From an uncultured Kordiimonas sp. (GTDB lineage Bacteria; Pseudomonadota; Alphaproteobacteria; Sphingomonadales; Kordiimonadaceae): 64,000 bases of DNA. The stretch spans positions 1,116,001 through 1,180,000 of the forward strand of contig CANLMI010000001.1 of assembly GCA_947492375.1 (NCBI GenBank). The letters run 5' to 3'. This document shows positions 7,309 to 11,922 of the stretch, in pieces. The notes beneath the pieces were generated by a model. The model worked only from the letters and a program-made list of their open reading frames with translations. It was not told where the DNA came from and did not search any database. Each line of letters opens with the position of its first letter. The stretch's first letter is position 1. Made by a program: the position numbers and the translations under genes.

Positions 7309-8154
7309 CTATAGCTGTTTTATGAATCGCCTGAAAAAATATGGCGTATGGTGCACAGTTTTTAAAACTGAAAATTTTTGCGCATCCCCCCTTAACGCCT
7401 CACATATTACCTGCGCACAAAAATAGGCATCAACGATGCCATAGCGCCCTAACCCCTGAATGAAATATATTCCTGCCTTGGTTAATCCAGCATGAGGTAA
7501 CGACTGCTTATTAATGGATACATACCCAGCTATCGCTTTATCAGCATCATTTTGGGTTAACTGTGGCCTATGCAAAATGCGCGTTTCCTTAATCAAGTCA
7601 CCTGAATATGCCCCTGCACACATGATCACATGCTTTGCTATCAACTTTCCTGTATCAGTAATAATTTCAAATTCACCTTCACGGCCTAAAATAGTTTTCA
7701 CGCGCGCGTCTTCATATATCCTCACGTCTGCTTCGGCAGAGGCGTTGGCAATTGCTAACAAAAAATCAACCGGGTTCAGCAGAATATATTCGCCCTCAAT
7801 ATGTGATGTTTTGATACTATGCTGATTAGCGAGCCTTAAAACCTGCTCCAATGTCTCACTAGCAAGGTCGCTGAATTTAGGGTGAGTAATCAAAGTAGAT
7901 CTGAGTTTGCAATCTGTGCCGTTTATTCGCCCACTTGCGCCCCACCCCACCTGATTCTGTTCAACAACGGCAACTTTCATGCCTGTGCTTGCCAATTGAT
8001 AAGCACAGGCAATACCGGCAAAGCCCGCACCAATGATGCATACATCACTGTCAATTACCCCCTCAAGGCGCAGGAAAGCTGCCTGATACGCAGTTTCGCG
8101 CCATGCAGGCGTGTCAACTCTGTGGTCATTATGGAGTGCATCACGTAAGCGCAT
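7309..8154 (-). CDS. Internally shortened FAD-dependent (PuuB/DAO-like) oxidoreductase
   Basis: 281 residues; relatives of the gamma-glutamylputrescine oxidase/glycine oxidase type are usually about 420-440. The N-terminal Rossmann motif is intact (IIGAGFAG, residues 40-47; VEQNQVGWGASGR binds FAD). MCAGAYSGDLI and a C-terminal GIYFIQGLGRYGIVDAYFCAQVICEA correspond to the start and end of the second half of the family, but much of the substrate domain between them is missing. The GRNGG motif reads GRING. The frame has no stop, so this is an in-frame internal loss, perhaps a decaying gene. AAAGAGGT precedes ATG 8154. It is divergent from a PuuD-like gene, which fits putrescine breakdown. Confidence 0.7.
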   Translation of the reverse strand: MRLRDALHNDHRVDTPAWRETAYQAAFLRLEGVIDSDVCIIGAGFAGIACAYQLASTGMKVAVVEQNQVGWGASGRINGTDCKLRSTLITHPKFSDLASETLEQVLRLANQHSIKTSHIEGEYILLNPVDFLLAIANASAEADVRIYEDARVKTILGREGEFEIITDTGKLIAKHVIMCAGAYSGDLIKETRILHRPQLTQNDADKAIAGYVSINKQSLPHAGLTKAGIYFIQGLGRYGIVDAYFCAQVICEALRGDAQKFSVLKTVHHTPYFFRRFIKQL

Positions 8155-9063: not shown

Positions 9064-9138
9064 TGGTGACCCCTACGGGAATCGAACCCGTGTTTCAGCC
9101 GTGAAAGGGCCGCGTCCTAACCGCTAGACGAAGGGGCC
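9064..9138 (-). tRNA. tRNA-Glu (TTC), second copy in the transcript
   Basis: 75 bases including an encoded 3' CCA. The acceptor stem GGCCCCT pairs with AGGGGTC (one G-T), the anticodon loop is CTTTCAC with anticodon TTC, and the T arm has GGTTCGATTCC. It is identical to the copy at 9171-9245, 32 bases upstream in transcription order. Confidence 0.97.
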
Positions 9139-9170: not shown

Positions 9171-9245
9171 TGGTGACCCCTACGGGAATCGAACCCGTGT
9201 TTCAGCCGTGAAAGGGCCGCGTCCTAACCGCTAGACGAAGGGGCC
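9171..9245 (-). tRNA. tRNA-Glu (TTC), first copy in the transcript
   Basis: Same 75 bases as the copy at 9064-9138, with encoded CCA and anticodon TTC. A good promoter lies at 9294-9322, so the two are likely made as one precursor and cut apart. Confidence 0.97.
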
Positions 9246-9293
9246 ATCCTAATCTTGATGAATTACCAATCGGTAATGTCGCCAACGGAGGCT

Positions 9294-9322
9294 TAGATAC
9301 CTACCTGCTCCCGCTGGGTCAA
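9294..9322 (-). promoter_or_regulatory. Sigma-70-type promoter of the tRNA-Glu pair
   Basis: Read leftward: TTGACC (9322-9317), a 17-base spacer, then TATCTA (9299-9294). Transcription would start near 9286, about 40 bases before the first tRNA. Confidence 0.65.
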
Positions 9323-9469
9323 CCTCTTTTTATATTTTTATGACATTATCATGGAATATTGATCGTTTTCGTCAGTATAAAGCCAACGTTGCTTACATAT
9401 TACCCTTACAAAAATAGTATTAAATCATTCGAATCTACTACTAAAAGCCACAGCTAATCATTAAAGAAA

Positions 9470-9532
9470 TCAAGCAGGCCTCATCCAATCTAATGTCATT
9501 TCAACCGTTGACATGCCTATCCACATATCCTT
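9470..9532 (-). pseudogene. Decayed duplicate of the recJ 3' end
   Basis: Read leftward this stretch encodes KDMWIGMSTVEMTLDWMRPA and a stop. The true RecJ C terminus, 641 bases away, encodes KDMWTGTPKVEMTLDDASL followed by INPA and a stop. At DNA level 9495-9532 and 10136-10173 align without gaps over 38 bases with 32 identities, including GTCATTTCAACC and TCCACATATCCTT exactly. Homology stops just before KDMW. The copies are in direct orientation and bracket the GNAT gene. Confidence 0.75.
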
Positions 9533-9566
9533 AGCGCAAACTATCTTTAAAATAGACAACTAACTA

Positions 9567-10046
9567 TTACCTAAGCGGTTTTATCATGTGCAGAGTATCC
9601 TCATAAAACCCCACCTTTCGATAAAAGTCCTGAGCACGTCTGTTTGCCGCAAAAACTTCCAAGTGCAAAAGTCGAAAATCATTATTCCGCGCCCACTCTT
9701 CCACAGCCAAAATTAACAAGCTGCCTATACCGGTACCTTGCATACCCTCAACAACCGCCAACAAAGGAACGGTTGCGCATACTTCGGCCGAGATTTCATC
9801 ACTATGCTCTCTGGCGTGAATAAACCCTAAAGGCTCACCATTACACTCTGCCAAAAATGTCGTATGCAGTAAGTTGGTCGCAGTCATCATTTCTTTGATA
9901 TAATTATCCTGAAAAGTCTGAATGACTTTAGCGGAATGCCAATCAAGTTTAGCTTGAACTGCAAGAAGCGGAGAAAGTGATTGCACAAACGGTAAATCCT
10001 CTGGCCGATAGTCACGGATAGTTATCTCAGTAGCAATATCCTCCAT
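9567..10046 (-). CDS. GNAT-family N-acetyltransferase
   Basis: 159 residues. ITIRDYRPEDLPFVQSL opens the GNAT fold; the acetyl-CoA pyrophosphate loop is GMQGTGIGSLLILAVEEWA (motif A, QGTGIG), followed by LLHLEVFAANRRAQDFYRKVGF (motif B). The substrate is unknown; such enzymes acetylate small amines or protein N termini. I prefer ATG 10046; a GTG four codons upstream is an alternative. It sits directly between the intact recJ 3' end and a decayed copy of that end, which suggests the gene arrived with, or caused, the duplication. Confidence 0.88.
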   Translation of the reverse strand: MEDIATEITIRDYRPEDLPFVQSLSPLLAVQAKLDWHSAKVIQTFQDNYIKEMMTATNLLHTTFLAECNGEPLGFIHAREHSDEISAEVCATVPLLAVVEGMQGTGIGSLLILAVEEWARNNDFRLLHLEVFAANRRAQDFYRKVGFYEDTLHMIKPLR

Positions 10047-10101
10047 AATCTTAATCACTCATAGTTTTCTGTTACATGAAGTTTGGACAATTTGCGCAGG
10101 C

Positions 10102-11922
10102 TTAGGCAGGATTGATGAGGCTGGCATCATCAAGGGTCATTTCAACCTTTGGCGTACCGGTCCACATATCCTTCTTGAGCTTACCAGCAATATTAAACTT
10201 ACGTCCAATACCTGTTCGTAGGCTATTGCCAAGCGATTCATCCGCTTGCCTGAACGCCATCACCTTCATAGAGATACCATCCTTGGATTTGAAAATGCAG
10301 CGCAGGTGGTTTTCACCAACCCGGTCTGCCTTAACAAGCACAACTTCCGGCACTACAAACCGTGGCCCCGGATTTCCCATACCAAATGGGCCCACGCGCT
10401 CAATCTCGTCCAAAAGCGCAGGTGTCGCGCCCGACATTGCAATAATACCATCCACTTTAAGCGATTTTGACGAGCTTGCGACCTCTACGTTTTTTGCCAT
10501 ATGCTTTTTAAGGAAACTCTCGAGCTCATCTAATTTATCCGGGGCAACGCTTAACCCTGCTGCCATCGAGTGACCACCGCCTTTCATCAACAGCCCAGCT
10601 TGCACGGCCTCAATTACTGCTGCGCCCATATCAACACCGCTGATAGACCGACCTGACCCTTTTCCTTCGCCGTTTTCAAGCGCAATAACGAAGGTTGGCA
10701 GACCGTATTTATCTTTAAGCCTGCTTGCAACAATACCGATAACACCTGCGTGCCAGCCCTCACCTGCAACAAACACAAGCGTATCATGAACGCCGTCGAT
10801 ACCAATCCTGGCCTCCGCCTGCTCCAACGCCTCTTTTAAGACCTCAGCTTCGATCGCACGGCGTTCATTATTATATGTATCCAGACGGTCAGCGATAGCG
10901 CGGGCTTCAATAGTATCATGCGTTGTAAGCAATTTAGCCCCCAGACTAGATTCGCCGACACGGCCGCCTGCATTGACACGTGGTCCAAGGATAAAACCAG
11001 CATGATACGTGTTAGGCGCTTCTGAAACCCGGCCAACATCCGATAGTGCTGTAAGGCCAATATTGCGCCGCGCAGCCATCACCTTGAGCCCCTGTGTCAC
11101 ATATGCGCGGTTAAGACCTGTTAAGGGCACCACGTCGCATATGGTGCCGAGAGCTACAATATCCAATAGGCTAACAAGGTTTGGTTCTTTAACCGTATCA
11201 CCGAAATATCCTGCCGCCCTAAGCGCGCGGTTGATTGCCACTAAAAACAGGAATGTTACACCGACGGCGGCAAGCTGACCAAGATCGCTTTCATCATCAA
11301 GGCGATTTGGATTAATTACAGCAACAGCTTCCGGCAGTTCTGGCTCAGCTTTGTGATGATCGACAACAATTACCTCAAGCCCAGCGTCTTTCGCGGCCTT
11401 TAAAGGCTCAAAGGATAACGTGCCACAGTCAACCGTAACAACAAGATCAATCCCTCTATCCCTAAGGCCAACCATAGCGGGCGCATTGGGCCCGTACCCT
11501 TCTGCCATGCGGTCAGGAATATAAATATGAATGGGTACACCGATCGCTTCAAAAAAGCGGCAAAAGATCGCGCTTGATGTTGCACCGTCTACATCATAAT
11601 CGCCGTAAACAGCAATCTTCTCACCCTGTTGAAGCGCACGAACAATCCGCTCAACCCCTTTATCCATATCGAGGATAACCGAGGGATCAGGCATCATCTC
11701 CTTTAGCGACGGGGTGAAAAAGGTTGCTGCTTCATCAATACCGATACCGCGCGCATTAATAAGCTGCCCAATGATTGGCGATACACCGAGGTTATCAGCG
11801 ATAGCACGCGCAATACGCTCTGAATATGGCCGAAGGGTCCAACTTTGCCCCAAAAGCGAATGGCGCACCCCAAGAACAGGGTCCGCCATTATAGTATCAG
11901 TATTTACAGGTATATCTGTCAC
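10102..11922 (-). CDS. recJ: Single-stranded-DNA-specific exonuclease RecJ
   Basis: 606 residues of the DHH phosphoesterase family. Motif I is VYGDYDVDGATS (about residue 105-116), the DHH motif is VVDHHKAE (about 190), and the DHHA1 motif is KGGGHSMAAGLS, followed by an OB-fold domain near the C terminus. RecJ degrades single-stranded DNA 5' to 3' in recombination and mismatch repair. The start is GTG 11922, two bases after the glpX stop, so translation is probably coupled. The C-terminal 20 codons recur, damaged, at 9470-9532. Confidence 0.95.
   Translation of the reverse strand: MTDIPVNTDTIMADPVLGVRHSLLGQSWTLRPYSERIARAIADNLGVSPIIGQLINARGIGIDEAATFFTPSLKEMMPDPSVILDMDKGVERIVRALQQGEKIAVYGDYDVDGATSSAIFCRFFEAIGVPIHIYIPDRMAEGYGPNAPAMVGLRDRGIDLVVTVDCGTLSFEPLKAAKDAGLEVIVVDHHKAEPELPEAVAVINPNRLDDESDLGQLAAVGVTFLFLVAINRALRAAGYFGDTVKEPNLVSLLDIVALGTICDVVPLTGLNRAYVTQGLKVMAARRNIGLTALSDVGRVSEAPNTYHAGFILGPRVNAGGRVGESSLGAKLLTTHDTIEARAIADRLDTYNNERRAIEAEVLKEALEQAEARIGIDGVHDTLVFVAGEGWHAGVIGIVASRLKDKYGLPTFVIALENGEGKGSGRSISGVDMGAAVIEAVQAGLLMKGGGHSMAAGLSVAPDKLDELESFLKKHMAKNVEVASSSKSLKVDGIIAMSGATPALLDEIERVGPFGMGNPGPRFVVPEVVLVKADRVGENHLRCIFKSKDGISMKVMAFRQADESLGNSLRTGIGRKFNIAGKLKKDMWTGTPKVEMTLDDASLINPA

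Follow-up and report, generated by a model that had tools for sequence, protein, structure and literature searches.

Some integrative elements insert in the 3′ ends of genes and restore those ends. The recJ locus described here is similar to such insertions in that the gene end is repeated, in direct orientation, on either side of an insert while recJ itself is kept intact, and different from them in that no recombinase and no recurrence were found and the cargo is a single gene.

Gene ends have also been proposed to be displaced by recombination between homologous sequences. In type VI secretion system (T6SS) effector-immunity modules, a homology-based displacement that moves the old 3′ end downstream has been proposed (excerpt of PMC5361080), and for rhs tips a displacement via homologous recombination with a small circle has been suggested (excerpt of PMC2935791). 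Homology-facilitated illegitimate recombination (HFIR), as described in an excerpt of PMC3240628, involves insertions of approximately 1 kb, mostly with 3-10 bp of microhomology, and is generally accompanied by a deletion.

Compared with T6SS effector-immunity loci and rhs tips as portrayed in these excerpts (PMC5361080, PMC2935791), the recJ locus has in common a piece attached behind a conserved part and an old 3′ end orphaned downstream, but here the gene, which encodes a housekeeping nuclease, remains whole, a single event is seen and GNAT forms the cargo. Its likeness to HFIR, within the excerpted account (PMC3240628), lies in approximately 1 kb of foreign DNA beside a presumed homologous anchor without a site-specific recombinase; the differences are that the locus has no evident deletion, that the joint and donor are unseen and that a duplicate of the end of the anchor remains.

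The decayed recJ end and its surroundings

The window analyzed here, a stretch of 64,000 nucleotides from an uncultured Kordiimonas sp., carries the locus on its minus strand. The recJ gene (10102..11922) is intact, with its stop codon at 10104-10102, and encodes 606 aa with DHH, DHHA1 and RecJ_OB domains; its last 72 bases (10173-10102) served as the reference for the repeat. After 43 bases, a gene in the same direction (9567..10058, 163 aa from a mechanically called GTG start) encodes a GNAT acetyltransferase that scores 61.4 bits with PF00583, for which the cut-off is 20.7. A joint of 34 bases (9533..9566) separates the GNAT stop from a decayed copy of the recJ 3′ end (9467..9532); GNAT is the sole gene seen between recJ and this copy, and no recombinase open reading frame (ORF) is present in the interval. 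Further downstream are an AT-rich spacer (9346..9466, 31% G+C), for which no relative was detected by the family search or in the neighbourhood, a conserved tRNA-Glu leader (9246..9345) common to the sister species and partly to other family members, and a tandem pair of tRNA-Glu (TTC) genes (9171..9245 and 9064..9138), the first of which is the usual direct neighbour of recJ. ARAGORN gives both tRNA-Glu genes a length of 75 nt and places their anticodon at position 34, and in the tRNA-Glu genes near recJ in other family loci it is at 35 (those of the sister species are outside its locus). Elsewhere in the window, a gene for a FAD-dependent oxidoreductase (7309-8154) that adjoins a C26 peptidase gene has 49.5% aa identity to its sister-species counterpart, far below the 84-94% of three other genes compared with that species.

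The repeat is a genuine decayed copy of the recJ tail. Positions 9532-9495 match the recJ tail at 10173-10136, both on the minus strand, at 32 of 38 bases without a gap (score 46), exactly as the initial annotation had described, and the repeat begins with 13 identical bases; extension to 9488 and 10129 gives 36 identities in 45 bases. No dinucleotide shuffle among 500 reached the score (best 28), and the next best unrelated place in a stepwise scan of the window scored 29. The copy begins 34 bases beyond the GNAT stop, and it probably does not stop where it had been thought to: after an indel of 2-5 nt it reads DEACLIS against DDASLIN in recJ and appears to continue to approximately 9467, an extension that is supported by a 64-nt gapped match between the copy and the recJ tail of the sister species. 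With such a continuation, the shared Pro-Ala-stop to which the frame had been reported as kept, present in the unshifted reading, would lie out of frame and is likely a coincidence. Upstream of 10173, an extension anchored at the repeat edge scores 0 for recJ likeness, and lenient scoring stretches the alignment there, but only with gaps. The 34-base joint likewise has no anchored similarity to upstream recJ. A resemblance of this joint to the inter-tRNA spacer, matched by 3 of 300 shuffles against that one chosen target, was equalled by 64 of 500 once the entire neighbourhood served as target, and was rejected.

With regard to origin and age, the copy reads KDMW, and a methionine before this tryptophan occurs in recJ of both genus members and is absent from the other 24 family loci in which the recJ tail can be read. 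Over 45 bases, the copy differs from the recJ of the window at 2, 3 and 4 sites in codon positions 1, 2 and 3, respectively, versus 0, 1 and 6 between the window and sister-species recJ in the same bases and 81, 42 and 338 over the whole gene. The spread in this short stretch is more like the decay of a free copy than functional divergence, but only suggestively so (Fisher p = 0.067 against the whole-recJ species difference). Fewer third positions have changed in the copy (4/15) than between the species (338/606, p = 0.034), and when all copy sites are assumed free, the difference (9/45 versus 338/606) has p = 3e-6, which tentatively suggests that the copy is younger than the split from the sister species. 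This date rests on the assumed free change, since the recJ genes of the two species differ in that stretch at 7 sites (6/15 third positions), less than the copy does (9 sites, 4/15 third positions).

The recJ-tRNA-Glu gap and the GNAT gene in relatives

A recJ match was present in 383 of 396 genomes of the order, and the family set comprised 29 genomes, including that of the window. Among the 28 others, two were cut before the recJ end (G007 and G016) and two had no recJ match (G013 and G019); many family loci extend just 1.5 kb downstream of recJ. In 22 of the 24 evaluable members, tRNA-Glu lies 67-163 bases after recJ. The two exceptions are G002, with no tRNA-Glu within 1.5 kb of recJ, and the sister species (G001, the only other genus member in the set), where the distance is 1651 bases. 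The adjacency extends as far as Azospirillum. The gap was measurable in 87 of the 104 loci with a recJ C-terminus (the downstream tRNA-Glu was not found in the other 17), with 80 at no more than 300 bases and seven at 856-1658, the window having 856. Given the short gap elsewhere, the best reading is that GNAT and the copy were inserted between recJ and tRNA-Glu, and this comparison supports both insertion and subsequent decay.

Other cargo occupies the gap in six of the 86 other measurable loci. In the sister species, it is a T4 RNA-ligase-1-like gene (PF09511, L029 394-1566) that is present in one of the 29 family genomes. Among the ORFs examined, those in the remaining five encode a DUF1194/VWA protein, a sulphur transporter, a phosphofructokinase, a Mutator-family transposase and an Asp/Glu racemase, the last accompanied by a second ORF of 195 aa. 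In distant lineages, these genes may be old neighbours rather than inserts. The initial annotation had proposed looking for other cargo between recJ-end repeats; in none of the six long gaps was a recJ-tail repeat clearly above its controls. The window and the sister species align on either side of the gap, and the sole match of the window within it is that of the copy to the sister recJ tail. One multiple alignment hinted at a decayed recJ tail in the sister gap, which shuffles did not support; its absence is weak evidence, because third positions are just 44% identical between the species and an old remnant may be unrecognisable.

The uniqueness of the repeat was assessed at three levels. 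For recJ loci, 105 were given, of which 104 had the recJ C-terminus (L027 did not) and 94 had enough sequence; the set was compiled in part from 40 loci hand-picked near the top of the order-level list (one of these, L150, is among those removed). Four duplicate or superseded loci (L003, L006, L019 and L150) were removed before the count, which was also made without L001, L029, L030, L101 (Bacillota) and the group of short loci L102-L131. An echo of the recJ tail stands out in one of the 94, the window itself (46 against controls of 18 and 19), and the second highest, in L084, scores 33, under its own control of 39. Within the host genome, 740 ORF tails (860 kb) were compared with their downstream 2 kb: four scored at least 36, three of which match inside ORFs of apparently related tandem genes, leaving the recJ echo as the only non-coding one, and the strand-reversed control never exceeded 30. 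A family-wide search with 221 bases around the copy returned, at E < 0.01, only the copy itself and the recJ of the window, with the sister recJ at E 0.36 among chance-level matches; it found no third recJ tail in the host genome.

The GNAT gene has a patchy distribution, with relatives at 1e-20 in 15 of the 396 order genomes, a count that includes the host genome. No other case of GNAT beside recJ was seen where the place of recJ was listed, the two being apart in all nine such genomes among the 14 others that bear GNAT. A pattern-based scan of genome contigs returned no relative, and such a scan has limits given that the homologues in order genomes are 47-57% identical. Plasmid and phage matches were at most 36% identical among the matches listed, which held all but 2 of the 14 plasmid records, and support in the GNAT tree was too low to place the gene. 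Its G+C content is 43%, versus 50% for recJ and 45% for the window. No sigma-70-like promoter was found ahead of it and no terminator-like site in 9250-10250; one promoter-like match lies inside GNAT, below the shuffle mean of 2.4. GNAT may be read together with recJ.

The possibility that GNAT moves as a cassette was considered by comparing the flanks of 14 homologues with those in the window, and was rejected: most scores were near those of reversed controls, and the best, downstream in L054, was 24 against 17. Separately, two distant homologues (L057 and L059) have clear flanking direct repeats of their own (scores 91 and 55; approximately 78 and 62 nt), which by eye resemble dispersed intergenic repeats, and a third (L033) has a weak one (28 versus 20).

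Possible origins of the arrangement

The most likely account, to which we give an even chance of being correct, is that GNAT reached its place behind recJ in a single recombination event, which left a recJ 3′ end stranded that has since decayed. In its favour are the short recJ-tRNA-Glu gap of other loci, the genus-specific methionine of the copy, the spread of its differences over all codon positions, its apparent youth, the alignment of the two species on either side of the gap, the patchy distribution of GNAT and the precedents for displaced 3′ ends. The incoming DNA would have consisted of a recJ tail followed by GNAT, from a presumed donor belonging to the host species or to one very closely related. 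This DNA might have entered by homologous recombination within recJ combined with illegitimate joining, as in HFIR, or alternatively as a small circle through a single cross-over located upstream of the resident recJ end. Either way, the resident end would have been shifted approximately 600 bases downstream, where it would have decayed, and recJ would have stayed intact because the incoming piece brought a working end. We infer the donor, both joints, and when and in what order the events took place. Against this account are approximately 121 unexplained bases that separate the copy from the conserved tRNA leader and, for HFIR in particular, that no accompanying deletion is evident at the locus. 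A donor with recJ beside GNAT was not found among the order genomes with the place of recJ listed or in genome contigs. The duplicated recJ tail may mark a homologous anchor; no import tract was recognised in recJ by comparison with the sister species, whose third positions are just 44% identical.

A local tandem duplication of the recJ tail, with GNAT arriving as part of the duplicated stretch or together with it and the second copy then decaying, ranks next, as an unlikely but serious contender. The genus-specific methionine in the copy is expected here too, and the differences between copy and recJ, which fall at all codon positions, fit its decay equally well; the adjacent tandem tRNA-Glu genes could also favour duplications. 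However, no further repetition was seen around the copy: the bases that follow it resemble neither GNAT nor the junction of recJ with GNAT, although decay might conceal such a repeat, and the 34-base joint is only weakly like the inter-tRNA spacer, at a level that the neighbourhood as a whole makes non-significant.

The initial annotation had favoured integration into the recJ 3′ end by an element supplying a replacement end. Such a site-specific event ranks third and appears improbable, although the direct repeat has the right orientation, the supplied end is intact and the 13 identical bases that open the repeat could be a core. If a site-specific element were at work, one would expect to see a recombinase, other occurrences that share the repeat edge, and mobile DNA carrying recJ tails; a homology-based displacement needs none of these. 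In a search covering the phage-integrase (PF00589) and resolvase (PF00239) families, no gene of either kind lies within approximately 95 kb; on the same contig, the nearest resolvase-family gene is approximately 96 kb off and the nearest phage-integrase-family gene approximately 259 kb. The repeat occurs in one of the 94 usable recJ loci (with one other genus member in the set), the six other long gaps lack it, one exact genus-specific recJ-tail pattern had 0 matches in viral contigs (a narrow test) and the family search gave no third recJ tail in the host genome. Of the suggestion that the locus is a very small mobile unit or the scar of one, the scar is retained and the mobile unit is not supported, as neither a recombinase of the two families nearby nor recurrence was found.

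Chance similarity, which had been dismissed from the start, has a negligible probability, as 0 of 500 shuffles reach the score and the strand control attains at most 30 in 740 tails versus 46.

Implications for the recJ junction

Displacement by recombination heads the three accounts, and the recJ scar is best read as one of an ordinary kind and a one-off rather than a novel type of mobile element. A broader reading, which we consider a long shot, is that the recJ-tRNA-Glu junction of the genus is a small insertion spot that single genes enter, GNAT here and the RNA ligase in the sister species, with the recJ tail serving as homology arm or attachment site, none of them bringing its own recombinase, and each event stranding the previous recJ end.

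At present, the value of the locus is mainly that of a worked case. It shows legibly how one gene may become joined to the end of a housekeeping gene, with a scar left behind, and it advises caution, since a repeated gene end need not imply an integrase. If the junction were a recurrent spot, it would provide a natural test of recombinase-free gene capture.
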